Shown here: positions 2 to 14,893 of the stretch, in pieces | Layout of the letters: each line of letters begins with the position of its first letter | Position numbering within the stretch: the stretch's first letter is position 1 | Assembly (NCBI GenBank): GCA_021787255.1 | Contig: JAJYMD010000223.1 | Span: forward strand, 1 to 15,690 | Length of the DNA stretch: 15,690 nt | Reading direction: 5' to 3' | Source: Actinomycetes bacterium | GTDB taxonomy: Bacteria > Actinomycetota > Acidimicrobiia > Acidimicrobiales > RAAP-2 | Notes under the pieces: generated by a model | Told to the model about the DNA's origin: nothing | Database searches by the model: none | Seen by the model: only the letters and a program-made list of their open reading frames with translations | Made by a program: the position numbers and the translations under genes

Positions 2-457
2 GATGTTGCGTGGCTGGGGGCGACCTGGCGGGGGCCGCTCCTGCTCAAGGGCGTGATGCGCGTTGGCGAGGCCAAGCGCGCCGTGGACGCGGGCGTCACG
101 GCCATCTCGGTGTCGAACCACGGCGGCAACAACCTCGACGGGACGCCTGCGTCGATCCGAGCGCTCCCCGCGGTCGCCCGGGCGGTGGGCGACCAGGTCG
201 AGGTGGTGCTCGACGGCGGGGTGCGGCGCGGTTCGGACGTCGTGAAGACCCTCGCCCTCGGCGCCCGTGCGGCGATGGTCGGCCGCGCGCCGCTGTGGGG
301 TCTGGCCGCCAGCGGCCAGGCCGGCGTGGAGAACGTGCTCGACGTCCTGCGCTCGGGGATCGACTCGACGTTGCGGGCGATCGGTCGGTCGTCGGTGCAC
401 GAGCTGTGCGACGGAGACGTCGTCGTGCCTGCCGGCTTCGTGCGGCAGCTCGGTTGA
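2..457 (+). CDS. mftD: MftD, mycofactocin FMN-dependent oxidase/synthase (C-terminal part)
   Basis: This is the last 151 residues of an FMN-dependent alpha-hydroxy-acid dehydrogenase family protein. The frame is open to the left edge, so the N-terminus lies outside the window; the ATG at 53 is internal. Visible motifs are LLLKGV (FMN/active-site lysine strand), SNHGGNNLDG (the catalytic-histidine loop) and DGGVRRGSDVVK followed by MVGRAPLWG (FMN phosphate binding). The run from the HGG loop to the terminal VVVPAGFVRQLG closely follows MftD as I know it from mycobacteria. MftD acts after MftC and MftE in mycofactocin biosynthesis, oxidising the AHDP intermediate to premycofactocin. A mycofactocin-type SDR and MftF downstream support the call over generic lactate or glycolate oxidases. 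The next gene starts 12 bases after the stop, so co-transcription is likely. Confidence 0.95.
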   Translation, partial: DVAWLGATWRGPLLLKGVMRVGEAKRAVDAGVTAISVSNHGGNNLDGTPASIRALPAVARAVGDQVEVVLDGGVRRGSDVVKTLALGARAAMVGRAPLWGLAASGQAGVENVLDVLRSGIDSTLRAIGRSSVHELCDGDVVVPAGFVRQLG

Positions 458-469
458 GGTGGCCGGGCC

Positions 470-1258
470 GTGGCGGTGAGACCGGTCGCCGTGGTCACCG
501 GTGCCGCGCGGGGGATCGGCGCGGCCACGGTCCGGGGGCTGGCGGCGCTGGGCTGGCGCGTCGTCGCCGTCGACCGGTGCGAGGACGACCCGGTCGTGCC
601 GTACCGGCTGGCCTCCAGGGCGGAGCTCGAGGCCGTGGTGGAGGAGGCCGGGGACGACGTGGTCGCGGCGATCGCGGACGTGCGCGACCTCGAGGCGCTC
701 GAAAGGATCGTCCTCGACGCCGAGGCGCGCTGGGGAGGGGTGGACGCCGCGGTCGCCGCCGCGGGCGTCGTCGCGGGCGGTGCGCCGGCCTGGGAGGTCC
801 CCGTCGAGGTCGAGCGGGCCGTCCTCGACGTCGATCTCGGGGGCGTGCTCACGCTCGCACGTGTCGCGATCCCGGCGATGCTCCGGCGGCCGCAGCCGCG
901 GCGGGGCCGGTTCCTCGCCGTGGGCTCCGCGGCGGACACGAGAGGGCTGCCGTCGCTCGCCGCCTACTGCGCGGCGAAGTCCGCGGTCGCGGGCTTCGTC
1001 CGCGCGCTCGCGGTGGAGCTCGGTGACCAGGGGATCACCGCCAACGCGGTCAGCCCGGGATCGACCGGGACGGCGGTCCTCGAGGCGTCGGCCGACCTCT
1101 ACGGGCTTTCCTCGGCCGCCGTCTTCGCCGACCAGCAGCCGATCCGTCGCCTGCTCGCACCGGAGGAGATCGCGCGCGTGCTCGTCTTCCTTGCGGACGG
1201 GTGCTCGGGCGGCATCACCGGCGCGGTGGTGCGCGTCGACGGTGGGCTTTCGCTCTGA
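470..1258 (+). CDS. Mycofactocin-associated short-chain dehydrogenase/reductase
   Basis: This is a 262-residue classical SDR. The dinucleotide motif TGAARGIG is at residues 10-17. The usual NAAG is AAAG here (VAAAGVVAGG), the catalytic serine lies in VGSAAD, and the YxxxK pair is in AAYCAAK. The C-terminus GAVVRVDGG is typical of the family. The GTG at 470 is chosen as start; a GTG at 476 would only remove two residues. From family knowledge, SDRs encoded between mftD and mftF are a mycofactocin-coupled subgroup that bind NAD(H) tightly and pass electrons to mycofactocin instead of exchanging the nucleotide. The substrate, probably an alcohol or carbinol, cannot be read from the sequence. The gene sits 12 bases after mftD and runs into mftF. 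Confidence 0.9.
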   Translation: MAVRPVAVVTGAARGIGAATVRGLAALGWRVVAVDRCEDDPVVPYRLASRAELEAVVEEAGDDVVAAIADVRDLEALERIVLDAEARWGGVDAAVAAAGVVAGGAPAWEVPVEVERAVLDVDLGGVLTLARVAIPAMLRRPQPRRGRFLAVGSAADTRGLPSLAAYCAAKSAVAGFVRALAVELGDQGITANAVSPGSTGTAVLEASADLYGLSSAAVFADQQPIRRLLAPEEIARVLVFLADGCSGGITGAVVRVDGGLSL

Positions 1259-1328
1259 GCGCTCTGAGCCGCCCCCACCGGTCCGGGCGGCCGGCGGCGT
1301 CGGCGTCCTCGATCCCGCGGCGCTCGGC

Positions 1329-2753
1329 GTGCGGCCCGACGAGCCGTTCCCCCAAGGGGTACGAGTGGACCTCGCGCCGGACGTCCGCTGCCTGGCGCCG
1401 GGGGTCCTGTTCGGGGGGACGCCGCCGCGCGTGGTGCGTCTCGGCCGACGCGGCGCCGAGCTGCTGGGCGCGCTGGAGCGCGGGCCGGTCAACGGGACGG
1501 CGTCGGCCCGGCTCGTCCGCAGGCTGACCGACGTGGGCATCGCGATCCCGCGCCCGTGCGGAGCCGACGTCGCGCACGCAGCGACCCACGACGTGACGGT
1601 CGTCGTCCCGGTGCGCGATCGCCCCGCCGAGCTCGCCGGTTGCCTGGAATCGCTCGGGAGCCGCCACCGAGTCGTCGTCGTCGACGACGGGTCCCTCGAC
1701 CCGGCCGCGGTGGCCGCGATCTGCCGTGAGCGCGGCGCAGACCTGGTCCGAAGGGAGGTGCCGGGGGGCCCCGCCGCGGCGCGCAACGCCGGGCTGCGCG
1801 CCGTCAGCTCCGAGCTGGTCGCGTTCGTCGACAGCGACTGCCTGCCGGGGCCTTGCTGGATCGAGGGGCTCTCAGCGCACTTCGTCGACCCGCTCGTCGC
1901 GGGCGCAGCTCCGCGCATCGTGCTGCCGGCCGGGTGGAGGGGCTCCTCGCTCATGGACCTGGGCCGCAGCGCTGCCCCCGTCCACCCCGCAAGCAGGGTC
2001 CCCTACGTCCCGGCGGCGGCCGTCGTGCTCCGGCGCGCCGCGCTGGGCGCAGGCTACGACGAGCGGCTCCGCTACGGCGAGGACGTGGACCTCGTGTGGC
2101 GCCTCGTCGAGGCCGGCTGGAGGATCCGCTACGTGCCCGACGTCGAGGTCGCGCACCGGGATCCTGTGGAGATCCTGCAGCGTCTCAGGCGACGCTTCTT
2201 CTACGGAACCTCGGTCGGTCCGCTCGCGCGGGCGCACCCGGGCACGCTCGGCCACCTCGTCGTGGGCGTCGGGCCCGCGTGCGCCGTCTGCTGCCTCCTC
2301 CTGGGCGCTCCGGGCCTCGCAGCGCTCGCATGGGCGGCCACGGCGGCGCACCTCGCCCGGCGTCTCCGCCCCTTTGGGACCAAGAGCCGCTTCGCCCTCG
2401 CGCTCTCGAGCGTCCAGGTGCTCCACGCGTGGGTCGGGCTCGGCAGGTGGTGCACCACCTTCGGCGTGCCGCTGCTGGGTGCCTCGGCGCTCGGGTGGCG
2501 CACGCGCCCGGCTCGCCGGGCACGTCGGGCGCTGGCGGTGCTCGTCGGCTCGGCGCTGCTCGCCAGACTCGTGGGCGAGCGCGGAGGGGACCGGCGCGTG
2601 GTGGTGGACGACTGCCTGGGCGGGCTCGCCTACGGCTGCGGGGTGGTGGCCGGCTGCGCGCGCGCCGGCGTCGTGGGCCCGTTGCTCCCGCGGATCGCCC
2701 GCCAGACCTTCTCCGGGGTGGCGGGCATGTCGAGGTGGCGCACGCCGAGGTGA
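1329..2753 (+). CDS. mftF: MftF, mycofactocin glycosyltransferase
   Basis: This membrane-associated family 2 glycosyltransferase decorates premycofactocin with a beta-glucan chain in mycobacteria. With the GTG at 1329 the protein has 474 residues, the usual MftF size. An N-terminal PqqD-like/winged-helix segment (about residues 5-75) starts with PFPQGVRVDLAPDVR, matching the LPDGF-type start of MftF. The GT-A domain follows, with VVVDDGS (about 118-122), the DSD metal motif (about 168-170), GPAAARN, and GEDVDLVWRL (about 250-259). Hydrophobic segments follow near residues 305-345. The C-terminal AYGCGVVAG and LLPRIAR are conserved in the family. An alternative GTG at 1242 would overlap the SDR by 17 bases and add 29 poorly conserved residues; neither start has a strong ribosome site. 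The 3' end overlaps the convergent molybdenum hydroxylase gene by 124 bases. Confidence 0.9.
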   Translation: MRPDEPFPQGVRVDLAPDVRCLAPGVLFGGTPPRVVRLGRRGAELLGALERGPVNGTASARLVRRLTDVGIAIPRPCGADVAHAATHDVTVVVPVRDRPAELAGCLESLGSRHRVVVVDDGSLDPAAVAAICRERGADLVRREVPGGPAAARNAGLRAVSSELVAFVDSDCLPGPCWIEGLSAHFVDPLVAGAAPRIVLPAGWRGSSLMDLGRSAAPVHPASRVPYVPAAAVVLRRAALGAGYDERLRYGEDVDLVWRLVEAGWRIRYVPDVEVAHRDPVEILQRLRRRFFYGTSVGPLARAHPGTLGHLVVGVGPACAVCCLLLGAPGLAALAWAATAAHLARRLRPFGTKSRFALALSSVQVLHAWVGLGRWCTTFGVPLLGASALGWRTRPARRARRALAVLVGSALLARLVGERGGDRRVVVDDCLGGLAYGCGVVAGCARAGVVGPLLPRIARQTFSGVAGMSRWRTPR

Positions 2754-4939
2754 GCGAGCGCGTCGACCACCGCGTTCTGGACCGCAGGCGTCGAGCCGAT
2801 GGTGGCGGACTCCCCGATGCCCTTCACGCCGAGCTCGTTGCGCGGCGTCGGGGTCTCCATCGTCGCCGTCTCGAAGCTCGGGAGCTCCGTGGCGCTGACG
2901 AACAGGTAGTCCGCGAGGCTCGTGGTGAGGGGGTTGCCCAGCTCGTCGTAGCGGAACTCCTCCAGCAGCGCCTGCGCCGCCCCCTGGGCGAGCCCGCCGT
3001 GGACCTGTCCCTCGGCGAGCAGCGGGTTCACGATGCGGCCGGCGTCGTCGAGCGCGACCATGCGGCGCAGGGCGACGCGTCCGGTCTCGACGTCCACCTC
3101 CACCACCGCCAGGTGCGCCCCGAAGGGGAACGTCGGCCCGGGCGAGGGGTAGTCCACCTCGGAGAGCAGCGGCATGCCCTTCTCGATCGCCGCGGCCGCG
3201 AGCTCCCCCCAGCTGCGCCTCGAGGCGGGCGACCCCGCGACCTGCAGACCGGTGCCGTCCTGGGCGACGACGTCGTCCGCGGAGGCCTCGAGGAGCTGCG
3301 CGGCCAGCTCCTCGGCCGCATCGAGGACCTCGACCGCAGCCTTCCTCGCGGCCATGCCTCCCATCTGCAGCGAGCGCGAGCCGTAGGTGCCGACGCCGCG
3401 GGCGACGAGGTCGGTGTCGGAGTGGACGAACACGACGTCATCGAGCGGGACCCCGAGCTCGTCGGCGACGAGCATCGACCACGCGGTGTCGTGGCCCTGG
3501 CCGTGGGGAGAGGTCCCCGTCTTCACGACCACCTTGCCGTCGGGGCGCACCTCGACCGAGGAGAACTCGCTTCCCGGGACGCCGTTGGTGATCTCGACGT
3601 AGACCGACAGCCCGATGCCGAGCTGGACGGGCTCGCCCGACTCGCGTCGCGCCCGCTGTTCGGTGCGCAGCTCCTCGTAGCCCGCGACCTCGAGCAGCCT
3701 CGCCAGCGCGGCGTCGTAGTCGCCGATGTCGTACTCGGTGCCGGTGGCGTTGGTGTAGGGGAACGGGTCGGTCCCCCTCACGAGGTTGCGCCGGCGCACC
3801 TCCGCGGGGTCGATCCCGACCTCGGCCGCGAAGATGTCCATCGCCCTCTCGATGGCGGCGGTGGCCTCGGGCCGCCCGGCGCCGCGGTAGGCCACGACCG
3901 GCGTCGTGTTCGTGACGACGGAGGTGAAGTGGCACTCGGCCTTGTCGATCGCGTAGGTGCCGGTGAGCATCATGCGCGTGAACATCGGCAGGAAGGCGCC
4001 GAGGGCGGGGTAGGCGCCGGAGTCCTGGACGATCTCCAGGCGGTAGGCCAGGACGCGCCCGTCGCGCGACCCGCCGATCGTGACCTGCTGGAACTGCGCG
4101 CGTCCGTGACCGAGGCTCACCATGGACTCCGAGCGCGTCTCGACCCAGCGGACCGGACGCCCGAGCCGCCGCGCGATCGCGGCGACGAGGACCTCTTCTG
4201 GGTACGTCGCCGACTTCGAGCCGAAGCCGCCGCCGACGTCCGGCGAGACGACGTGCACCGCCGCGGTCTCCAAGCCGAGCTGGCGGGCGATCGCGTCCCG
4301 CAGCGCGAAGGGTGCCTGGCTCGAGGCGAAGACCGTGAGCCGTCCGTCGGCCTCGACGCGCGCGGCCGCCGCCCGTACCTCGAGCGGGCAGGGCGCGAGG
4401 CGCTGGTTCACGATGCGCTGGCTGACCACGACCTCGCAGCCCTCGAAGAGCGACTCGTCGCGCTCGAACGACGGCTCGAAGGCGACGTTGGTCCCCGCCT
4501 CGTCGAACAGCGCCACGGTCCCGCTGAGCGCCTCTTCGGGGTCGACCAGGGCCGGCAGCGGCTCGTAGTCGACCTCGATCAGCTCGAGGGCGTCGACCGC
4601 CTCGGCTAGGGTCTCTGCGACGACGGCGGCGACCAGGTCGCCGACGAAGCGGACCTTGCCGTCGCAGAGCAGCGGACGCGCCATGCGTGCATCGATCACG
4701 GGCAGCTCGGGGGCGAGCGGCGGGAGACCGAGGTCGGCACCGGTCAGGACCTCCACCACCCCTGGCGCGCCGGCCGCCGCCGAGACGTCGAGACGCCCGA
4801 CACGTGCGTGGGCGAGCGGCGAGTGGAGGAAGCCGACCCAAAGCGCAGAAGGGAGGTCGAGGTCGGCGACGTAGGAGCCGCCGACGGTGAGGAACTTCGG
4901 GTCCTCCTTGCGGAGGACGCGGTTGCCGAGGATGCTCAC
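2630..4939 (-). CDS. Xanthine dehydrogenase/CoxL-family molybdopterin-binding large subunit
   Basis: This 769-residue protein is the molybdopterin cytosine dinucleotide-binding catalytic subunit of a molybdenum hydroxylase. It begins with NRVLRKEDPKFLTG-like residues and a hammerhead domain (first about 140 residues). VGGGFGSK lies near residue 237, AYRGAGRPE near 350-358, PHGQGHDT near 480, and VKGIGES with the catalytic glutamate near 705-710. The loop is AYRGAGR, not the AYRCSFR of form I CO dehydrogenase, so it is a form II or other hydroxylase of unknown substrate (aldehyde, purine, N-heterocycle or aromatic). The start is GTG with GGAGAGG just upstream. Partner subunits for FAD and 2Fe-2S, normally encoded beside it, are absent from the window. 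The tail beyond PEKVWRAIRG is proline/threonine-rich and lies inside mftF antisense. Confidence 0.9.
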   Translation of the reverse strand: MSILGNRVLRKEDPKFLTVGGSYVADLDLPSALWVGFLHSPLAHARVGRLDVSAAAGAPGVVEVLTGADLGLPPLAPELPVIDARMARPLLCDGKVRFVGDLVAAVVAETLAEAVDALELIEVDYEPLPALVDPEEALSGTVALFDEAGTNVAFEPSFERDESLFEGCEVVVSQRIVNQRLAPCPLEVRAAAARVEADGRLTVFASSQAPFALRDAIARQLGLETAAVHVVSPDVGGGFGSKSATYPEEVLVAAIARRLGRPVRWVETRSESMVSLGHGRAQFQQVTIGGSRDGRVLAYRLEIVQDSGAYPALGAFLPMFTRMMLTGTYAIDKAECHFTSVVTNTTPVVAYRGAGRPEATAAIERAMDIFAAEVGIDPAEVRRRNLVRGTDPFPYTNATGTEYDIGDYDAALARLLEVAGYEELRTEQRARRESGEPVQLGIGLSVYVEITNGVPGSEFSSVEVRPDGKVVVKTGTSPHGQGHDTAWSMLVADELGVPLDDVVFVHSDTDLVARGVGTYGSRSLQMGGMAARKAAVEVLDAAEELAAQLLEASADDVVAQDGTGLQVAGSPASRRSWGELAAAAIEKGMPLLSEVDYPSPGPTFPFGAHLAVVEVDVETGRVALRRMVALDDAGRIVNPLLAEGQVHGGLAQGAAQALLEEFRYDELGNPLTTSLADYLFVSATELPSFETATMETPTPRNELGVKGIGESATIGSTPAVQNAVVDALAHLGVRHLDMPATPEKVWRAIRGSNGPTTPARAQPATTPQP

Positions 4940-5020: not shown

Positions 5021-6718
5021 GTGGCCTTCCCCTCCGATCTCGAGATCGCACGCGGCGCCTGCTTGAAGCCGCTGCAGGAGATCGCGGCGACGATGGGGAT
5101 CGGCGAGCACCTGCTGGAAGCCTACGGGCCTGCGGTCGCCAAGATCCGGCTCGAGGCGATCCAAGAGCTCGCCGACCGTCCGAAGGCGAAGTACGTCGTG
5201 GTGTCGGCCGTCACCCCGACGCCCCTCGGCGAGGGCAAGACGACCACCACCGTCGGCTTGGGCCAGGCGATGCGCCACATCGGCAAGCAGGCGACGGTCG
5301 CGATCCGCCAGCCGTCGATGGGCCCGACCTTCGGGATCAAAGGCGGGGCGGCGGGAGGCGGCTACAGCCAGGTCGTCCCGATGGAGCTCTTGAACCTCCA
5401 CCTCACCGGCGACTTCCACGCGGTCACCGCCGCCCACAACCTCCTCTCTGCGATCGTCGACAACCACCTCTACCAGGGCAACGCGCTCGGGCTCTCCCTG
5501 GAGGACATCGTCTGGCGGCGAGTCCTGGACGTGAACGACCGTTCGCTTCGGAACGTCGTGATCGGCCTGGGCCCCCGCGAGGACGGCGTCACCCGCCAGG
5601 CCGGTTTCGACATCACCGCGGCCTCCGAGGTGATGGCGATCTTCGCCCTCGCCACGTCGCTTCAGGACCTGCGGGCCCGCCTCGGGCGGATCGTCGTCGG
5701 CTACACGGGCTCCGGCACCCCGGTCACCGCCGAGGAGCTGAGGGCCGCCGGCGCGATGGCCGTCTTGCTGCGCGACGCGCTCAAGCCGAACCTCCTGCAG
5801 ACCTTGGAGCACACGCCCGTCCTGGTCCATGCAGGGCCCTTCGGGAACATCGCCCACGGCAACAGCTCGATCCTCGCCGACCGGATCGGCATCAGAGCCG
5901 GCGACTTCCTCGTGACCGAGGCCGGCTTCGGGGCGGACATGGGCGCGGAGCGGTTCTTCAACATCAAGTGCCGCACCTCGGGCCTCGCCCCGGACGCCGC
6001 CGTCGTCGTCGCGACCGTCCGGGCGCTGAAGGCCCACTCGGGCAACCACCGCATCGTGGCCGGGAGACCCCTCCCCGAGGCGCTCCTCGCCGAGAACCCC
6101 GACGAGGTGCACGAAGGCGGCGCGAACCTGCGCAAGCAGATCGAGAACATCCAGATCCACGGCGTGACCCCGGTCGTCGCCGTCAACGCCTTCCCGACCG
6201 ACCATCCCTCCGAGTGGTCGGCCGTCGCGGAGATCGCGGCATCGATGGGGGTGAGGAGCGCCGTCTGCCACCACTTCACCGAGGGGGGCGCCGGCGCGGT
6301 CGAGCTGGCGGAGGCCGTCGTGGAGGCGGCCGAGGAGCCCTCCCGGTTCCAGATGCTCTACCCCGACGACATGGCGCTGCGTGACAAGATCTACACGGTC
6401 GCGACCAAGGTGTACGGCGCAAAGGACGTGTCGTACTCGCCCGACGCCGCACGCGCGCTCGACCGCTACGAGTCGGCCGGGTTCGGGCACCTTGCCGTGT
6501 GCATCGCGAAGACCCATCTTTCGATCTCCTCGGACCCCGCCCTGAAGGGCGCCCCGACGGGGTGGACCCTTCCGGTCCGAGACGTGCGCGCTTCGGTCGG
6601 CGCGGGCTTCGTGTACCCGATCTGCGGGGAGATCCGCACCATGCCCGGGCTCGGGAGCAACCCCGCCGCGTTCTCGATCGACCTCGACGCCGACGGCGAG
6701 ATCGTCGGGCTGTCCTAG
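5021..6718 (+). CDS. fhs: Formate-tetrahydrofolate ligase
   Basis: This 565-residue enzyme catalyses the ATP-dependent, reversible joining of formate to tetrahydrofolate, giving 10-formyl-THF. The length and whole-chain similarity fit the homotetrameric bacterial enzyme. The P-loop TPTPLGEGKT is at residues 65-74. Further conserved segments are RQPSMGPTFGIKGGAAGGG, NLHLTGDFHAV, FGNIAHGNSS, TEAGFGADMG, VYGA followed by a C-terminal CIAKTH, and PICGEIRTMPGLG. GTG at 5021 is the start, 16 bases after a strong GGAGGAGG stretch; upstream in-frame codons lie in the hydroxylase gene's antisense and are not conserved. It leads a plus-strand set with two FolD-family genes, so together they interconvert formate and methylene-THF. 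In Sphingobium SYK-6 the homologue (LigH) supports THF-dependent O-demethylation of vanillate and syringate, which fits the neighbouring lig operon. Confidence 0.98.
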   Translation: MAFPSDLEIARGACLKPLQEIAATMGIGEHLLEAYGPAVAKIRLEAIQELADRPKAKYVVVSAVTPTPLGEGKTTTTVGLGQAMRHIGKQATVAIRQPSMGPTFGIKGGAAGGGYSQVVPMELLNLHLTGDFHAVTAAHNLLSAIVDNHLYQGNALGLSLEDIVWRRVLDVNDRSLRNVVIGLGPREDGVTRQAGFDITAASEVMAIFALATSLQDLRARLGRIVVGYTGSGTPVTAEELRAAGAMAVLLRDALKPNLLQTLEHTPVLVHAGPFGNIAHGNSSILADRIGIRAGDFLVTEAGFGADMGAERFFNIKCRTSGLAPDAAVVVATVRALKAHSGNHRIVAGRPLPEALLAENPDEVHEGGANLRKQIENIQIHGVTPVVAVNAFPTDHPSEWSAVAEIAASMGVRSAVCHHFTEGGAGAVELAEAVVEAAEEPSRFQMLYPDDMALRDKIYTVATKVYGAKDVSYSPDAARALDRYESAGFGHLAVCIAKTHLSISSDPALKGAPTGWTLPVRDVRASVGAGFVYPICGEIRTMPGLGSNPAAFSIDLDADGEIVGLS

Positions 6719-6742: not shown

Positions 6743-7624
6743 GTGACGGCGCTCATCCTCGACGGGCGGTCTCGCAGAGACGAGATCCTCGAGTCCCTGC
6801 GCGCCGAGCTGGAAGCTTCCGGCCGGCCACAGGTCAGCTTCGCCACGGTCCTGGTCGGCGACGACGAGGCGAGCATGCGCTACGTGGCGCTGAAGCACAG
6901 GGCCGCCGAGCAGGTCGGCATCCGCGTGCGAGCCGTCCGGCTCCCCCGTTCGGCACCCCAGGCGCATGTCGAAGAGGCGCTCCTCGCCCTGTCCTCCGAC
7001 CCGTCTGTGCACGGCATCCTGCTGCAGCTGCCGCTCCCGGCGGGCCTCGACGAGGCGGCCGCCGCCTCCTGCATCGATCCCCGCAAGGACGTCGACGGGA
7101 TGACCGCCTTCTCGCTGGGCCGGCTCGTGCAAGGCCGTGGCGCCCATCGGCCGTGCACGGCCGCCGGGGTGCTGGACCTGCTCCGCCGCCACGGCATCGA
7201 CCTCTCGGGACGCCGCGCCGTCGTCGTCGGGCGGGGGTCGCTCGTCGCCATCCCCCTGGCGCTCATGCTGGCGGGCGCACAGAGCGCGGGCGGTGAGGGG
7301 TGCGCGGCGGTCACGGTGACCGACGCCGACGCGCCCGACCTGGCCGAGGTGTGCCGCGCCGCAGATCTCGTCGTGTCCGACGTCGGCCGCCCCCGCCTGG
7401 TGCGGGCGGAGTGGATCAAGCCCGGTGCGACCGTCGCGGACGTCGGGGTGTCCTTCGTGGATGGCAAGCTCGTCGGCGACGTGGACCCGAAGGTGGCCGA
7501 GGTCGCCGGGGCGCTCGTGCCGAACCCCGGCGGGGCGGGTCCGATGACCGTCGCCCTGCTCCTGCGCAACACCCTGGACGCCGCGAGGTCGGCGGGCGTG
7601 CTCGGCGAGGCGCAGGAGAGGTAG
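6743..7624 (+). CDS. folD: FolD, methylene-THF dehydrogenase/methenyl-THF cyclohydrolase (altered cofactor loop)
   Basis: This is a 293-residue FolD-family protein. The family oxidises 5,10-methylene-THF to methenyl-THF with NADP and hydrolyses that to 10-formyl-THF. Active-site residues are in place: VGDDEAS then Y47-V-x-x-K51 (the catalytic lysine), GILLQLPLP with Q95, and KDVDG at 115-119; PCTAAG follows. The dinucleotide loop is not canonical. Where FolD usually has VVGRS-x-x-VG[KR]P, this protein has VVGRGSLVAIP (161-171), losing the serine and the GK/GR pair. The later CHSRT-like NADP-phosphate loop reads VTDAD after a short insertion. The terminal PNPGGAGPMT is retained. Start is GTG at 6743, 24 bases after fhs. 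It may be mainly a cyclohydrolase, or use another cofactor; its tandem paralogue has the complementary pattern. Confidence 0.93.
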   Translation: MTALILDGRSRRDEILESLRAELEASGRPQVSFATVLVGDDEASMRYVALKHRAAEQVGIRVRAVRLPRSAPQAHVEEALLALSSDPSVHGILLQLPLPAGLDEAAAASCIDPRKDVDGMTAFSLGRLVQGRGAHRPCTAAGVLDLLRRHGIDLSGRRAVVVGRGSLVAIPLALMLAGAQSAGGEGCAAVTVTDADAPDLAEVCRAADLVVSDVGRPRLVRAEWIKPGATVADVGVSFVDGKLVGDVDPKVAEVAGALVPNPGGAGPMTVALLLRNTLDAARSAGVLGEAQER

Positions 7625-7666
7625 GGGAGAGGCAGAGGCGAGGCCGAGGAAAGGGAGAGGCAGAGG
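7625..7666 (+). repeat. Purine-rich spacer with a duplicated 14-bp element
   Basis: The gap between the two folD-family genes is almost wholly purine on the plus strand. The 14-mer GGGAGAGGCAGAGG occurs at 7625-7638 and again, identical, at 7653-7666; the second copy places GAGGAG next to the ATG at 7669. It holds several Shine-Dalgarno-like cores and probably serves translation of the second gene. It may be a simple-sequence duplication. Confidence 0.7.
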
Positions 7667-7668
7667 AG

Positions 7669-8595
7669 ATGGAAGCGACGGTCATCGACGGGACGGCGGT
7701 CTCGCACGCGCTGCGGGCCAGGTTGCTCGGCGAGCTGGCCGCGGTGCGCGCCTCGGAGGTGGAGCCGGGGCTGGCGAGCGTGGTGGTGGGCGACGACTAC
7801 GCCGCGCACGCCTATGAGCGCCGGCTTCGCCGCCTTGCAGGAGCCCTGGGCCTTCGGTTCCAGCCCGAGCGGCTACCTGCCGACGCGGAGCTCGCCGAGG
7901 TGCTCGCCACCGTCGGAAAGCTGAACGCCGACCCGAGGATCAGCGGGATCCTCGTCCTGCGCCCCCTGCCCGCCCACCTCTCGGAGCTGGAGCTGTACCG
8001 CACGCTCGACCCGCTGAAGGACGTCGAGGCGGTCCACCCCGCCAACGCCGGCTTGATGGCGCGCGGCACGCCGCGGTTCGTGCCCTCCACGCCCGCCAGC
8101 TGCTTCTGGCTTCTCGACGACTACTTCGGCCGCACCGGGCGCGACCCGAGGACCGCTCTCGAGGGCAGGACGGTGGTCGTCGTCGGCAGGAGCCACAACG
8201 TCGGCAAGCCTGCGGTCTGGCTCGCCTTGGACCGCGGGGCGATCGTCGTGAGCTGCGATGAGCACGCCTCTCGGGCAGGGAGGCTGGCCGAGTTCACCCG
8301 CCAGGCGGACGTGCTGATCGTGGCGGCCGGCTCTCCTGGGCTCGTCACCGGCGACATGGTGAAGGACGGCGTGATCGCGATCGACGTGGGCATCAACCCG
8401 GTGGTGGCGGAGAGCGGGCGGGTGCACCTCGTCGGCGACCTCGACTTCGACAGCGTGGCCGGGCGCGCGGAGGCGCTCACCCCGGTCCCCGGCGGGGTCG
8501 GGCCCGTCACCGACGTCTGGCTGGTGCGCAACGCGGTCCTCGCGTCGGTCGTCCAGCACACGACGCTGGCCATCGGGCCCTGGCCGACCGACTGA
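7669..8595 (+). CDS. FolD paralogue lacking the catalytic lysine; possible monofunctional methylene-THF dehydrogenase
   Basis: This 308-residue protein is FolD-like over its full length but diverged at the active site. The tyrosine Y49 is kept, yet the YVxxK lysine is L53. GILVQLPLP reads GILVLRPLP, so the glutamine is L97. KDVDG reads KDVEA (117-121), and PCTP reads PSTP. The dinucleotide part is canonical: VVGRSHNVGKP (171-181) and TPVPGGVGPVT. From memory, yeast Mtd1, a monofunctional NAD-dependent methylene-THF dehydrogenase, also lacks this lysine and glutamine and has KDVEG. I therefore infer dehydrogenase without cyclohydrolase activity; a regulatory or heteromeric subunit is also possible. 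The ATG at 7669 has an ideal GAGGAG. The frame is intact, so it is not a pseudogene. It lies 44 bases after folD and is probably co-transcribed with it. Confidence 0.85.
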   Translation: MEATVIDGTAVSHALRARLLGELAAVRASEVEPGLASVVVGDDYAAHAYERRLRRLAGALGLRFQPERLPADAELAEVLATVGKLNADPRISGILVLRPLPAHLSELELYRTLDPLKDVEAVHPANAGLMARGTPRFVPSTPASCFWLLDDYFGRTGRDPRTALEGRTVVVVGRSHNVGKPAVWLALDRGAIVVSCDEHASRAGRLAEFTRQADVLIVAAGSPGLVTGDMVKDGVIAIDVGINPVVAESGRVHLVGDLDFDSVAGRAEALTPVPGGVGPVTDVWLVRNAVLASVVQHTTLAIGPWPTD

Positions 8596-8613: not shown

Positions 8614-8677
8614 CTGGGCGGTGCGCGACGTCTGGGCGGCGCGCGACGTCTGGGCGGTGCGCTACCCCTGGGCGGCG
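8614..8677. repeat. 18-bp tandem repeat at the convergent end of folD paralogue and ligC
   Basis: Three 18-bp units stand head to tail at 8614-8631, 8632-8649 and 8650-8667, followed by a partial unit at 8668-8677. The consensus is CTGGGCGGYGCGCGACGT; units one and two differ at one base, and unit three changes its last bases to CTACCC, which contains the ligC stop. The array fills most of the 66-base gap between the convergent genes and enters the ligC C-terminal codons. I see no clear intrinsic terminator there. Confidence 0.85.
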
Positions 8678-9612
8678 AGCTGGCGGTCCAGGTCCCCGAG
8701 CACCCTGTAGCAGCCGAGGACCTGGGCGATGCTGGCGTTCGGCTCCCGCCCCTCGGTGACGGCTGCGACGAACTCGCGGTCTTGCAGCTCGATCCCGTTC
8801 GTGGAGACGTCCACCTTCGAGACGTCGATCGGGTGCTCGTAGCCGTCGACGAGGTCGTCGTAGCGGGCGATGTAGGTCCCGTGATCGCAGATGTAGCGAA
8901 AGAAGCTCCCGAGCGGCCCGTCATTGTTGAAGCTGAGCGAGAGCGTGCAGATCTTGCCGCCCGCAGTGCGCAGCTGGATCGACATGTCCATCGCGATCCC
9001 GAGCTCCGGGTGGATCGGGCCCTGGACGGCGTTCGCGACCGTGACCTCCTCACCGGTCTGGTACTGGAAGAGGTCGACCGTGTGCGCCGCGTGGTGCCAG
9101 AGCAAATGGTCGGTCCAGCTTCGGGGCTGGCCGAGGGCGTTCATGTTGGTCCGGCGGAAGAAGTAGGTCTGCACGTCCATCTGCTGGATCGTGAGCTCGC
9201 CAGCCTGGATGCGCTTGTGGATCCACTGGTGGGACGGGTTGAAGCGACGGGTGTGGCCGGCCATGCACACGAGCCCCGTCTCGCGCTGGACCCGGTCGAT
9301 CTCGGCGGCGCCCTGCCAGCTGTCGGCGACCGGGATCTCCACCTCGACGTGCTTGCCGGCGCGCATCGCGGCGATCGCCTGGGCGGCGTGCAGCTGGGTC
9401 GGGGTGCACAGGATCACCGCGTCGACGTCGTCACGCCCGAGGGACTCGGCGAGGTCCGTCGTCGCATGGCCGATGCCGTAGCGTTCCGCGACCTGCTTCG
9501 TGGGCTCGGCGCGGCGGCCGACGATCGAGGTCACCTCGACCCCGTCGATGCAGGCGAGGGCGTCGAGATGCTTGATGCCGAAGGCGCCGGCACCGGCGAG
9601 GGCGATGCGCAC
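8662..9612 (-). CDS. ligC: LigC, 4-carboxy-2-hydroxymuconate-6-semialdehyde dehydrogenase
   Basis: This 316-residue Gfo/Idh/MocA-family enzyme oxidises the hemiacetal form of the LigAB product to 2-pyrone-4,6-dicarboxylate, using NADP(+). The Rossmann motif GAGAFG is at residues 7-12. The stretch around residues 153-185 (RRTNMNALGQPRSW, then LLWHHAAHTVDLFQ) is the hallmark of LigC/PmdC and sets it apart from sugar dehydrogenases of the family. Length agrees with the SYK-6 enzyme (about 315). Start is GTG at 9612 with GAGGAG upstream. It follows ligB with 9 bases between and is the last gene of the operon. Its 3' end carries part of an 18-bp tandem repeat array. Confidence 0.95.
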   Translation of the reverse strand: MRIALAGAGAFGIKHLDALACIDGVEVTSIVGRRAEPTKQVAERYGIGHATTDLAESLGRDDVDAVILCTPTQLHAAQAIAAMRAGKHVEVEIPVADSWQGAAEIDRVQRETGLVCMAGHTRRFNPSHQWIHKRIQAGELTIQQMDVQTYFFRRTNMNALGQPRSWTDHLLWHHAAHTVDLFQYQTGEEVTVANAVQGPIHPELGIAMDMSIQLRTAGGKICTLSLSFNNDGPLGSFFRYICDHGTYIARYDDLVDGYEHPIDVSKVDVSTNGIELQDREFVAAVTEGREPNASIAQVLGCYRVLGDLDRQLAAQG

Positions 9613-9621
9613 GGGGTCTCC

Positions 9622-10932
<1,311 letters not shown>

Positions 10933-10936
<4 letters not shown>

Positions 10937-11829
10937 GGGCGGTCTCCCCAGTACAGGCGCATCGGGTTGTCCACGAGCAGCTTCCTTTGCAGCTCGTCGC
11001 TCGTGGCGATCGTCGGCACGTAGTCGACGAGCTTGCCATCGTCGGGCATGTGGTCCTTCAAGTTCGGGTGCGGCCAGTCGGTCCCGAAGAGCACTCGATC
11101 GGGGAACGACTCGACCACGCGGCGGTGGAAGGGCACCACGTCGTCGTAGCCGGGCGGGCCCGAGATGCTCAGCCGCTCCGCGCCGCTCACCTTCGCCCAG
11201 AACTGCGGGTGCTCGGCCATCAGGCGCAGGAAGAGGCCGAACTCCGGCCCGTCCACCGGCTTGCGGACGTCGGGCCGTCCCGTGTGGTCGACGACCACCT
11301 GGGTCGGCAAGGAGGTGAAGAAGTCCCATCGCTCGGCGAGGTCCTGCGCCTCGAAGTAGACGACCACGTGCCAGCCGAGCGGCGCGATCCGATCGACGAT
11401 CGAATGGTAGTACGCGTCGGGCTTCGGGTCGGCCAAGCGGCGGACGAAGTTGAACCGGACGCCGCGCACCCCGGCTTCGTCCAGCTCGGCCAGCTCGGCG
11501 TCGCTCACCTGGGGACGGACCACGGCGATCCCGCGTGCGAGTCCTTGCGAAGCCGCGAGCGCGTCCACCAGCGCGCGGTTGTCCGCGCCGTGGCAGGTCG
11601 CCTGGACGATCACGTTGCGCTCGAAGCCGAGCAGGTCTCGAAGCGCGAAGAGCTGCTCCTTGGTGGCGTCGCAGGGCGTGTACTTGCGCTCGGGCGCGTA
11701 CGGGAACACGTCGCCAGGACCGAAGACGTGGCAGTGGGCGTCGACCGCGCCGGGGGGCAGGCGATAGGCGGGCTTCGAGGGGTGGGGGTCGAAGCAGAGC
11801 CAGTCCGGGTCCATCTGGAAGGCACCCAC
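10933..11829 (-). CDS. ligI: LigI, 2-pyrone-4,6-dicarboxylate hydrolase
   Basis: This 298-residue amidohydrolase-superfamily enzyme opens the lactone of 2-pyrone-4,6-dicarboxylate to 4-oxalomesaconate. It is metal-independent in SYK-6. Key residues match: H32 and H34 in DAHCHVFGPG, H182 in VVVDHTGRPD, and D251 in LFGTDWPHPN, each one to three positions from the SYK-6 numbering (H31, H33, H180, D248). VIVQATCHG and RGVRFNFV are also typical. The GTG at 11829 starts one base after the ligJ stop; an in-frame ATG five codons later (11814) is possible. Its stop overlaps the ligA start by four bases. The order I-A-B-C equals the D-A-B-C order of the Comamonas pmd operon. Confidence 0.95.
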
Positions 11830-11830
11830 G

Positions 11831-12850
11831 TCAGCGTCCCTGCGCCTTCAAGATCGCGTCGAGGCGCGGGTACACGCGTCGAGCGTTCTCCGAGAGCACC
11901 CGCGATCTGTCCTCCTCGGAGAGCCCGCTGGCCTCGACATAGCGCCGGGTGTCGTCGAAGTGGTGGCCGGTCTCGGGGTCGACGCCCCTGACCGCGCCGA
12001 TCATCTCCGAGCCGAACAGGATGTTCCCGGGGTCGATCACCTTGAACAGCAGGTCGATCCCCGGCTGGTGGTAGACGCAGGTGTCGAAGAAGACGTTGCG
12101 CATCACGTGCTCGGCGAGCGGCGGGCGCTTCAGCATGTCGGCGAGGCCCCGGTAGCGGCCCCAGTGGTAGGGGACGGCCCCGCCGCCGTGGGGGATGACG
12201 AAGCGGAGCTCGGGGAAGTCGGCGAACAGGTCGCCTTGGACGAGCTGCATGAAGACGGTGGTGTCCGCGTTCAGGTAGTGGGCTCCGGTCGTGTGGAAGC
12301 TCGGGTTGCAGCTCGCCGAGACGTGGATCATCGCCGGGACGTCGAGCTCGACCATCTTCTCGTAGAAGGGGTACCAGGCCTTGTCGGTGAGGGGCGGGGA
12401 GGTCCAGTGGCCGCCGCTCGGGTCCGGGTTCAGGTTGCAGCCGACGAAGCCGAGCTCGGTGACGCAGCGCTCCAGTTCCGCGATCGAGCCGGTGATGGGG
12501 GCACCGGGCGACTGGGGGAGCTGGCAGACCCCGACGTAGGTCTCTGGGTAGAGGTCCACCACCCGCTTGATCAGGTCGTTGCACGCCCGCGACCACGCGA
12601 GGCTCACGCGCTCGTCGCCGACGTGGTGGCCCATCGCGGAGGCCCTCGGGGAGAAGATGGTCAGGTCGGTCCCGCGCTCGCGGACCAGGCGGAGCTGGTT
12701 GGTCTCGAGCGACTCGCGGATCTCCTCGTCGGGGATGGCGGGGTAGGGCGGAGGGGATCCTCCGGCGTCGAAGGCCGCCTTCTGGGCTTCCCGCCAGCGG
12801 TCGTGCTGCTCGGGCGCGGTCGTGTAGTGCCCGTGACAGTCGATGATCAC
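11831..12850 (-). CDS. ligJ: LigJ, 4-oxalomesaconate hydratase
   Basis: This 339-residue amidohydrolase-fold enzyme adds water to 4-oxalomesaconate to give 4-carboxy-4-hydroxy-2-oxoadipate. It belongs to the Zn-dependent LigJ/PmdE type, which is unrelated to GalB hydratases. H6 and H8 in DCHGHY are metal ligands. Other conserved blocks are FSPRASAMGHH, NLNPDPSGGHWTSPPLTD, PAMIHVSASCN, HTTGAHYLNADTT, VIPHGGGAVPYHWGR, FFDTCVYHQPGIDLL and SEMIGAVRG. Length is nearly identical to SYK-6 LigJ (341). The start is GTG at 12850, 16 bases after ligU with a GGGGTGAGGG stretch as ribosome site. It sits between ligU and ligI, so consecutive pathway steps are neighbours. Confidence 0.96.
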   Translation of the reverse strand: MIIDCHGHYTTAPEQHDRWREAQKAAFDAGGSPPPYPAIPDEEIRESLETNQLRLVRERGTDLTIFSPRASAMGHHVGDERVSLAWSRACNDLIKRVVDLYPETYVGVCQLPQSPGAPITGSIAELERCVTELGFVGCNLNPDPSGGHWTSPPLTDKAWYPFYEKMVELDVPAMIHVSASCNPSFHTTGAHYLNADTTVFMQLVQGDLFADFPELRFVIPHGGGAVPYHWGRYRGLADMLKRPPLAEHVMRNVFFDTCVYHQPGIDLLFKVIDPGNILFGSEMIGAVRGVDPETGHHFDDTRRYVEASGLSEEDRSRVLSENARRVYPRLDAILKAQGR

Positions 12851-12866: not shown

Positions 12867-13973
12867 TCACCTCGTCACCTCCGGCACCTTCCACACCGAC
12901 GCGGGCACGAAGACCTCCCCGCGCATCAGCAGCCGCGCGGTGCGCAGCAGGGCTGCCCGGTTGACCGTGACGGCGTCGCCCTCCACGTCCACGTCCATCG
13001 AGACCGTGAAGACCCCGCTCGGGTGCTCGACGTCGAGGTCCACCAGCCCGCTGGTGCGCTCGAGCGTCGCGACCTCCGCCGCCACGGAGCCGGGGACCAG
13101 GCAAGCCGTCGCGACGGAGACGGCACCGAAGACGCCGATGGCCTCGTGGACCCGGTGAGGGATGAAGCTGCGGGTCGCGACCGCCCCGCCGTGCTCGGCG
13201 GGGGCGAGCAGGCTCACCTTGGGGACGGTCTTGTGAGAGACGTCGCCGAGGTGCATCAGCGGGCCGGCGGCGAGCCGGATGGCCTCGACCTTTGCCCGCA
13301 GCGTGTCGTTGGCCTCGAGCTCGGCCGGGCGCTCGGAGCCGCTCAGTCCAAGGTCGGACGCCTTGACGCAGACGACCGGCATGCCGTTGTCGATGCAGGT
13401 GACCCGCACGCCCTCGACCACGTCGACCGGGCTCTTCGTCGGCAGCAGCGCTCCGCACGAGGAGCCGGCGACGTCCAGGAAGTCGATGGGGATCGGGGCG
13501 TGGGTGCCGGGCACCCCGTCGATCCTGGCGCTTCCCTCGTAGGTGACCGCGCCGTCCGGCGTGGGAACGTGCGCCACGGCCAGGCTCTGGGTGTTCTCCA
13601 TCCAGATCCGCACAGGGGTGACCGGTCCCGTGGCGGGAACCAGACCCTCCTCGATGGCAAAGGGCCCGACCCCCGCCAGGATGTTCCCGCAGTTCTGGTT
13701 GTCGGAGACCTCGGGCCGGTCCGGCCACACCTGGAGGAAGAGATAGTCGACGTCCGCGTCGTCGCGTGCCGAGGGCGCGATCACTGCGACCTTGGAGGTG
13801 AGGGGATGGGCTCCGCCCATCCCGTCGATCTCCCGAGGATCGGGTGAGCCCATGGCCGCGAGCAGCACGGCGTCGCGCAGCGTCCGGTCTCGAGGCAGGT
13901 CGCGGGCGTGGAAGTAGAGGCCCTTCGACGTCCCGCCCCGCAGCACCGAGCAACGGATCGCCGTCTGGCTCAT
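12867..13973 (-). CDS. ligU: LigU, 4-oxalomesaconate tautomerase (PrpF family)
   Basis: This 368-residue PrpF-family isomerase has the diaminopimelate-epimerase-like fold. It converts one double-bond isomer of 4-oxalomesaconate, as released by LigI, to the isomer that LigJ hydrates. Motifs are [12 protein letters not shown] (residues 10-21), [15 protein letters not shown] with K61, [17 protein letters not shown] with C95, and [14 protein letters not shown]61 and C95 align with the lysine and cysteine that I recall as catalytic in SYK-6 LigU (K66, C100). General PrpF aconitate isomerases share these, so the specific assignment rests on the surrounding lig genes. The ATG at 13973 overlaps the ligK stop as ATGA; upstream in-frame codons belong to ligK antisense-phase sequence. 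Confidence 0.93.
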
Positions 13974-14659
13974 CGAAGCTCCGCCGACTCGACGTAGGTG
14001 AGGCCGCGCTGGGCGAGCTTCTCTCGCATCGAGTAGAGGTCGAGCCCGAGCTCGCCCTTGGCGAGCAGCGCCCGACGCTCGGCCTCGCTCGCTTCGCGCG
14101 CCCGGGAGCGCTCCAGCACCGATGCCGCCTCTTCCCGGCGGACCACCACGACCCCGTCGTCGTCGGCGAGGATGACGTCGCCGGGCCGGACGTAGGCGCC
14201 GGCGCAGACGATCGGCGTCTGGACGTTGGCGACCGTCTCCTTCACGGTTCCCTGAGCGGAGACGGCCCGGGACCACACCGGGAAGCGCATCTCGGTGAGG
14301 ACCGCGACGTCGCGCACGCCCGCGTCGATGACGAGTCCCCGGACGCCGTGGGCGACGAGGCTCGTCGCGAGGAGCTCGCCGAAGTAGCCGTCCTCGCAGG
14401 GGCTGGTCGGGGCGACGACGAGGACGTCACCGGGCTTGGCCTGCTCGACCGCCACGTGGATCATCCAATTGTCGCCGGGCGCGCCCTCGACGGTGAGCGC
14501 GTTGCCCGCCACCTTGATCGGCCGGTAGATCGGGCGCAGGCAGGAGGCCAGCAGCCCGGTGCGCCCCTGGGCTTCGTGCACCGTGGCGACGCCGAGCTCG
14601 CCGAGCGCGTCGATCACGTCGAGGTCGGTGCGTGCGACGTTCTTGACCACGACGGCCAT
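13970..14659 (-). CDS. ligK: LigK, 4-carboxy-4-hydroxy-2-oxoadipate aldolase (RraA-like)
   Basis: This 229-residue class II pyruvate aldolase cleaves 4-carboxy-4-hydroxy-2-oxoadipate to pyruvate and oxaloacetate, and usually also decarboxylates oxaloacetate. The RraA-like fold is shown by [13 protein letters not shown] near the N-terminus, the [21 protein letters not shown] segment, [10 protein letters not shown], and [10 protein letters not shown], whose arginine and aspartate are the catalytic and metal-site residues in P. putida HMG/CHA aldolase. A final helical segment contains [11 protein letters not shown]. The ATG at 14659 has AGAGGGG about 8 bases upstream; GTG at 14665 is an alternative two codons earlier. 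It is the first lig gene of the operon and overlaps ligU by four bases. Being first, it lies next to the presumed promoter region. Confidence 0.94.
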
Positions 14660-14893
14660 GTTCACACCCCTCTTGTTCTTCTTGTCTTCTTCTCGAGCCT
14701 TCGTCCCGAGCTTGGGCTGTCCCCGGCCCCGATGGCGCTGGTGGGGCACGTCGCCTCGATGGGCTCGGCGGTCTCGGTCATGGTAACGCCACGACGTCGC
14801 CGTCAGCCCGAGCCCACAGGCGCAGGCTTGTAGGCTGCGCGCTGCCTGGCGCTCCCCGCCTGTGCCCAGCCGAGCCGGAGGGTGGCATGCAGC
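14660..14893 (-). promoter_or_regulatory. Gap upstream of ligK; likely operon leader or promoter region
   Basis: This 234-base gap is the longest in the minus-strand gene set, in which other spacings are 1-40 bases. It contains an A/G-rich, unstructured-looking minus-strand tract (14695-14667) ending in the ligK ribosome site, and an inverted repeat with 8-base arms, GGGCTCGG at 14761-14768 and CCGAGCCC at 14808-14815, which could be an operator. I see no convincing minus-35/minus-10 pair. A separate lig promoter here is inference from the spacing. Confidence 0.4.
14662..14781 (-). CDS. Possible 39-codon leader ORF upstream of ligK
   Basis: A short frame starts at ATG 14781 and stops two bases before the ligK ATG, so its ribosomes would end at the ligK start. 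The first 22 codons all end in G or C as in real genes here. The last part holds clustered rare codons (ACA AGA AGA ACA AGA), which argues against an ordinary gene but would suit a leader peptide. No good Shine-Dalgarno is visible. Its N-terminus [11 protein letters not shown] loosely resembles that of LigA. I recognise no family and give it low confidence. Confidence 0.25.

Follow-up and report, generated by a model that had tools for sequence, protein, structure and literature searches.

Gene arrangement at the locus

The stretch of Actinomycetes DNA analyzed here (15,690 nucleotides of contig JAJYMD010000223.1; hereafter the window) carries three consecutive plus-strand genes predicted to act on one-carbon (C1) units bound to tetrahydrofolate (THF). 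They are a formate-tetrahydrofolate ligase (FTHFS) and two FolD-family genes, here called FolD1 and FolD2. Among named relatives the nearest, L002, is an Actinomycetes genome assembled from a metagenome.

5021..6718, plus strand: FTHFS (PF01268, 831 bits; NF010030, 803 bits against a cut-off of 652)
6743..7624, plus strand: FolD1, with Lys, Gln and Asp intact and an altered dinucleotide site; proposed cyclohydrolase (PF00763, PF02882, motifs, tree, AlphaFold2 [AF2] model)
7669..8595, plus strand: FolD2, from a large clade of FolDs without the Lys; putatively dehydrogenase-only (PF00763, PF02882, motifs, tree, AF2 model)

The FTHFS start at 5021 was picked by the codon model, and its open reading frame (ORF) is open from 4808. 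Both FolD ORFs are intact (FolD1, 293 amino acids with a GTG start; FolD2, 308 amino acids with an ATG start) and scored above the curated cut-offs of both FolD domains. FolD1 reached 101.3 bits on PF00763 (cut-off 32.8) and 164.8 bits on PF02882 (cut-off 27); FolD2 reached 91.2 and 150 bits against the same cut-offs. The AF2 models of FolD1 and FolD2 (predicted local distance difference test scores of 93.8 and 92.0, respectively) had an ordinary FolD fold, and the best structural likeness of each was to bifunctional FolDs, with yeast Mtd1 clearly further off. The spacer between the two genes (window 7622-7668) holds a purine-rich run of near repeats, GAGGCAGAGG-like, right before the FolD2 start.

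Residues of FolD2 and its relatives

The original prediction had FolD2 keeping the dinucleotide motif VVGRSHNVGKP and carrying Leu53, Leu97 and KDVEA at the catalytic positions. All of these were read in the ORF, and the substitutions proved to be general among its relatives. Among the best 120 (P0001-P0120) of 6759 passing matches, the Lys of the YxxxK motif was L, V or I, the Gln was L or M and the folate-binding Asp was Glu, each in 120 of 120. The Lys, Gln and Asp that mark a bifunctional FolD are L, L and E in FolD2 itself. K, Q and D were each retained in all 78 other FolDs from a scan of genome contigs. These 78 are the ordinary members of 80 loci returned with over-general FolD2 patterns, and their GRSxNVG and DVGI motifs cannot be counted as separate evidence because they contain the words of the scan pattern. 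The residue losses of FolD1 and FolD2 are beyond chance.

FolD2 is most likely a dehydrogenase-only enzyme. Since Lys, Gln and Asp are all lost, the case for its dehydrogenase activity is built on the dinucleotide motif, its conservation, the company that the gene keeps and the reported precedent of Clostridium perfringens FolD. A distinct Lys-less type, sister to FolD2, was seen at ten loci (L182-L185, L135-L137 and L139-L141), where the motifs read MYRGQVE, ILPLRPF or ILPLRPY, and GHSNxVGKP; this type is probably dehydrogenase-only as well.

Residues and selection in FolD1

Lys51, Gln95 and KDVDG were read in FolD1 as predicted, together with VVGRGSLVAIP. Conservation was evaluated in 28 rows, which comprised the window and 27 of the 30 nearest listed relatives (P0121-P0150); P0121 and P0147, both shorter than 255 amino acids, and the basal P0150 were left out. 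The catalytic Lys, Gln and Asp of a bifunctional FolD were intact in all 28. The positions that contact NADP, given in human numbering and mapped onto FolD1 by us, differed. GxxxVG was changed to VA in 28 of 28 rows, and Ala215 was replaced by Asp in 25. Within the 2'-phosphate site, His196 was lost in every row (Asp in 26 of 28), Ser197 was lost in every row and Arg173 was kept in 18. The Arg173/His196/Ser197 set of 2'-phosphate ligands that marks a bifunctional FolD (PMC3368264) is thus broken in FolD1.

The predicted loss of the NADP-phosphate loop was borne out by these counts. For the dinucleotide loop one correction applies: the replacement of Ser by Gly in GRS is not diagnostic. Ordinary FolDs of the order also read GRG (34 of 34 rows), and this replacement was discarded as a mark of lost NADP binding. 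P0150, which branches first within the FolD1 group, retained GRSALVG and had already lost the His-Ser pair, so the second loop was probably the first to change.

The ratio of nonsynonymous to synonymous substitution rates (dN/dS) had a mean of 0.27 in FolD1, from 10 pairs that included one partial sequence; the means were 0.15 in FolD2 (21 pairs), 0.12 in FTHFS (15 pairs) and 0.15 in canonical FolD (45 pairs). The value for FolD1 indicates that the gene is still under selection. The divergence of the Rossmann domain relative to that of the catalytic domain was 1.11 in FolD1, compared with 0.80 and 0.81 for FolD2 and 0.73 and 0.77 for the canonical groups. When columns were bootstrapped, the share of replicates with no excess in FolD1 was 0.038, 0.004, 0.000 and 0.002 for the four comparison groups. 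Constraint on the Rossmann domain of FolD1 is relaxed.

Ancestry of the pair

The phylogeny covered 89 FolDs, and its bootstrap was not fully settled. FolD2 and all sampled Lys-less FolDs, including those of Wood-Ljungdahl (WL) clusters, formed one clade (100/100). FolD1 was placed beside ordinary K-bearing FolDs, with the FolDs of its own order among them (28 rows, 100/99). An origin by tandem duplication was rejected; the best tree joining FolD1 and FolD2 was 114 log units worse (approximately unbiased [AU] test, p 0.00014). The separate tree positions and the AU test show that the pair is a meeting of two lineages and not a split duplicate. The original prediction had one bifunctional enzyme dividing its two reactions between neighbors. 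This is supported in part: each gene probably handles one step, but the common origin has to be abandoned. FolD2 is probably a member of a widespread one-step family and FolD1 an odd, more recently changed recruit.

Cyclohydrolase genes in genomes with FolD2

The presence of FchA, a cyclohydrolase unrelated to FolD and recognized by its FTCD_C domain, was surveyed in 40 genomes, 34 with FolD2 and six with the WL sister type. The set was made up of five strong matches, 29 of 59 further genomes (all 23 at ≥55% identity and six WL) and six genomes of the window's genus. FchA was found in 26 of the 40 and in none of the six FolD2 genomes of the genus. Its gene adjoins those of FolD2 and FTHFS at seven loci (L154, L162, L167, L168, L174, L175 and L179) and that of FolD2 at L172, a short contig without FTHFS. 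The WL-type clusters (L182-L185) combine FTHFS, FchA and FolD, and L182 also carries RACo, CooC-like and CdhD genes. At L161 and its kin, FolD2 lies in another setting (at L161, beside DNA ligase and gatC/amidase genes).

Every FolD was sought in the 34 genomes outside the genus (28 with FolD2, six WL). The Lys-less protein was the only FolD over the cut-off in 12 of them, and 11 of these 12 had FchA (six of seven with FolD2 and all five WL). The exception, G459, is 66% complete and had no FchA that we could find, and a strict rule that FchA is present wherever a canonical FolD is missing was dropped accordingly. A full second FolD, with K, Q and D in every case, was detected in 19 of the 34. 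FchA was also present in 12 of these 19, for which reason we claim no statistical association between FchA and the lack of a second FolD. In three genomes (G318, G220 and G474) the second matches were fragments or borderline, and these genomes were put in neither class; in G220 the C-domain of the second FolD extends over two adjoining matches (G220:C1:990031-990517), as if frame-shifted. Among the 14 genomes without FchA, 13 had a K/Q/D-bearing FolD, FolD1 being counted for G614 and G622. These counts suggest that FolD2 is rarely without another protein able to carry out the cyclohydrolase step. FolD1 occurred in four of the 40 genomes; it was not among the FolDs read in 33, and second matches went unread in three.

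One family of second FolDs, f68 (L236-L238 and L240-L246), is K-bearing and has GYG, GFG or GHG in place of GRS. The genomes concerned carry FolD2 and mostly FchA, and these proteins are possibly a parallel case to FolD1.

Distribution within the genus

The 13 genomes sampled from the genus included eight with FTHFS, six with FolD2, four of those six with FolD1, one with an FTCD_C gene (G611) and 10 with a canonical folD. FolD2 was absent from all five genomes that lack FTHFS. G001 is uninformative on FolD2, as its contig ends inside FTHFS. No FolD was found in G620 (82% complete), which indicates that the assemblies have gaps. FolD1 lies directly behind FTHFS in G614, G617, G621 and G622, and the FTCD_C gene of G611 occupies the same slot. 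Because it sits in the place of FchA between the ligase and FolD2, FolD1 is probably a cyclohydrolase. We regard the fuller claim, that of a cyclohydrolase whose dehydrogenase role is gone, as evenly balanced.

The tandem pair was present in four genomes of this genus. When 395 genomes drawn from the class were searched for FolD1, 251 of them had matches at E 1e-55 or better, and no FolD1-type gene was found among the matches listed (best identity, 54%); the 20 loci read from this search all had ordinary FolD motifs.

A candidate route for methoxyl carbon

Genes for LigM and a MetF-like protein were detected on the contig that carries FTHFS and FolD2 in G613, G614, G616 and G617; in G621 the two genes lie on a different contig and are separated by one gene. 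LigM scored 886.5 bits against an NCBIfam cut-off of 580 at L153 and L261, where the MetF-like gene follows. The MetF-like protein scored weakly on methylene-THF reductase models (57-65 bits against a cut-off of 293.7). Homologues of both genes were present at L262, L263 and L265. The gene directly behind FolD2 is of the DesA/LigM type at L153, below both cut-offs; at L162, L168 and L172 it exceeds the LigM cut-off, yet scores higher with the DesA model, below the cut-off of the latter. At L154 the neighbors are sarcosine-oxidase genes, another source of folate-bound C1 units. Demethylase and sarcosine-oxidase neighbors make it likely that the pathway runs oxidatively, from methyl- or methylene-THF towards formate. 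Taken with the protocatechuate 4,5-cleavage genes of the window, the LigM/DesA and MetF-like genes near the set in relatives suggest that it probably serves to oxidize C1 units from the methoxyl groups of lignin.

In the proposed route, O-demethylases of the vanillate or syringate type (LigM/DesA), known here from the neighborhoods of relatives, would put the methoxyl methyl group onto THF, and the MetF-like enzyme would form methylene-THF. FolD2 would oxidize this to methenyl-THF; the Asp-Glu found at its 2'-phosphate site makes NAD the probable cofactor. FolD1, its own NADP site out of use, would convert methenyl-THF to formyl-THF through the intact Lys, Gln and Asp, and FTHFS would then free formate and make ATP. 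FolD1 would in that case be an ordinary kind of FolD that was recruited into the FchA slot and lost its dehydrogenase role. All enzyme roles are deduced from sequence, ancestry and neighbors. The reading as a whole, in which FTHFS, FolD1 and FolD2 form the lower half of an oxidative C1 route with FolD2 as dehydrogenase and FolD1 as cyclohydrolase, is tentative, its chances falling just short of even. We are somewhat more doubtful that FolD1 is a natural FolD-derived cyclohydrolase that displaced FchA, so that two FolDs of different ancestry would run consecutive steps.

Several observations weigh against this proposal. Passages of two papers give Lys56, Gln100 and Asp125 a part in both the dehydrogenase and the cyclohydrolase steps (PMC3368264; PMC6443876), and all three residues with reported dehydrogenase roles are missing from FolD2; for this reason the dehydrogenase-only claim and the whole reading were graded slightly lower. 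Only a computational study argues that Lys56 is chiefly a binding aid in dehydrogenation (PMC9173628). The 95% interval of the FolD1 domain ratio (0.85-1.41) overlaps those of the other groups. Several cofactor-site positions of FolD1 are fixed at new residues and show no drift (mean entropy at 13 NADP contacts, 0.60 bits compared with 0.62 in bifunctional relatives, 28 rows each), and Thr148 and the DVG motif are retained. An Asp closing the second Rossmann strand is a usual feature of NAD enzymes. The link to LigM/DesA was found in relatives, outside the window, and the FTCD_C protein of G611 scored below the NCBIfam cut-off for FchA (57 against 275 bits). Lastly, two genomes closely related to G617 (dS ~0.14), G613 and G616, lack both FolD1 and FchA, and a canonical folD must do the work in them.

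Alternative explanations

Since the new residues at its cofactor site are mostly fixed, an NAD-linked FolD1 is the main rival. FolD2 would still be dehydrogenase-only, but FolD1 would be a bifunctional enzyme switched from NADP to NAD that gives the cyclohydrolase and a second dehydrogenase. The Asp at the end of strand 2, the mostly fixed replacements and the retained Thr148 and DVG all agree with this, and an oxidative flux might favor NAD. However, neither the Asp at position 215 nor the Ala in GxxxVG occurs in the 78 diverse FolDs, the Rossmann domain evolves more quickly than the catalytic one, and FolD2 would already supply the dehydrogenase; a switch of cofactor is the less likely reading. 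An obligate heterodimer, which the original prediction also entertained, would draw its folate chemistry from FolD1 and its nucleotide site from FolD2. FolDs are homodimers, and adjacent genes with complementary losses would suit such an arrangement, but every FolD active site is formed by a single chain, the two proteins have separate ancestry and FolD1 accompanies so few of the FolD2 or WL proteins surveyed (4/40) that we give the heterodimer very little credence.

It is also conceivable, if quite improbable, that the two genes are redundant or decaying, or have neither activity, and that a canonical folD elsewhere does the work. Such a gene is present in most genomes of the genus (10/13), and FolD1 was lost in two sister species, G616 and G613, leaving remnants between FTHFS and FolD2 (31 and 123 bp at L149, 33 bp at L148). 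FolD1 is thus dispensable where a canonical folD exists, and the pair is no strict unit. The dN/dS of FolD1 is twice that of FolD2, and FolD2 lacks three residues that parts of the cited studies connect with both activities (PMC3368264; PMC6443876). Against redundancy, both dN/dS values are far below 1, the remaining active-site residues of FolD1 are invariant and the Lys-less protein is the sole FolD found in 12 of the 34 genomes outside the genus.

Comparison with known systems

The FolD of Clostridium perfringens reportedly (attributed to Aluri et al. 2016, a study cited in PMC7219735) acts as a dehydrogenase only, beside a separate cyclohydrolase FchA and a formyl-THF synthetase. The same trio surrounds many FolD2-type genes, whereas in the window a second FolD stands at the place of FchA. 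The FolD2 half of our proposal is therefore already known in kind, and the FolD1 half would be new if true. The methylene-THF dehydrogenase of Peptostreptococcus productus is called monofunctional in a passage of PMC6443876; it resembles FolD2 by description, as a bacterial enzyme, but is said to use NADP. The Acetobacterium woodii cluster fhs1-fchA-folD-rnfC2-metV-metF, as given in part of PMC10472528, has the same order of FTHFS, FchA and FolD but serves an acetogenic route; the window has an aromatic-catabolism setting. The C1 logic proposed here is shared by Sphingobium SYK-6, where, in the relevant portion of PMC6888825, the ligM-metF-ligH operon and FolD link THF-dependent O-demethylation to MetF, FolD and formyl-THF synthetase, together with protocatechuate 4,5-cleavage. 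There, one FolD is assumed to have both activities; the window has two FolDs of different ancestry beside the ligase. A resemblance of FolD2 to yeast Mtd1, an NAD-dependent dehydrogenase by the title of structure 1edz, had been suggested but was not upheld. The FolD fold is shared, but identity is ~20% and FolD2 is structurally nearer to bifunctional FolDs. A passage of PMC11064299 calls Mtd1 a cyclohydrolase only, yet describes the dehydrogenase reaction, and was not used.

Searches of open-licence PubMed Central texts listed neither an enzyme derived from FolD with cyclohydrolase activity alone nor two tandem FolD genes within a cluster for O-demethylation. Such a cyclohydrolase, if true, would mirror the dehydrogenase-only FolDs, and half-reactions that share one active site could then be studied apart in natural proteins. 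Databases give both genes of the pair the name of the same two-step folate enzyme and call the Lys-less FolDs bifunctional wherever a name is given, so C1 models of these bacteria probably misplace methenyl-THF hydrolysis. The locus also suggests that uncultured Actinomycetota handle the methoxyl carbon of lignin by way of folate.

Neighboring genes

The genes listed next are on the minus strand.

2630..4939, minus strand: large subunit of the xanthine dehydrogenase/CO dehydrogenase (molybdenum-hydroxylase) type, divergent from FTHFS (below NCBIfam cut-offs; best NF041018, 648 of 790 bits)
8662..9612, minus strand: Gfo/Idh/MocA oxidoreductase, putatively in the LigC-like place of protocatechuate 4,5-cleavage (PF19858, PF01408)
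9622..10464, minus strand: class III extradiol dioxygenase beta subunit, LigB-like (PF02900; NF009903, 505.9 bits against a cut-off of 317)
10466..10936, minus strand: small codon-model ORF where the alpha subunit of the dioxygenase would be expected, LigA-like by position only
10933..11829 and 11831..12850, minus strand: two amidohydrolase-family genes with possible LigI/LigJ-like roles (PF04909 in both)
12867..13973, minus strand: PrpF-like isomerase (PF04303), putatively LigU/LigK-like as a pair with the next gene
13970..14749, minus strand: RraA-like aldolase (PF03737), putatively LigU/LigK-like as a pair with the previous gene

In composition, the minus-strand genes 3' of FolD2 match a protocatechuate 4,5-cleavage cluster, in which the individual Lig roles are predicted. 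The N-terminus encoded by ORF 10466-10936 is a low-complexity stretch resembling Thr-Glu-Pro-Thr-Lys, and the real start may be further in. The molybdenum-hydroxylase large subunit stays with FTHFS at the loci of the genus that were read: homologues adjoin FTHFS at L148-L151 and L153, and an ORF of the same length occupies the same place at L268. Upstream of the C1 genes, window 53-2753 holds mycofactocin genes (the end of mftD, a mycofactocin-coupled short-chain dehydrogenase/reductase and mftF). The order of mycofactocin and C1 genes is repeated at L268, as judged by ORF lengths only, and at L151 and L153.

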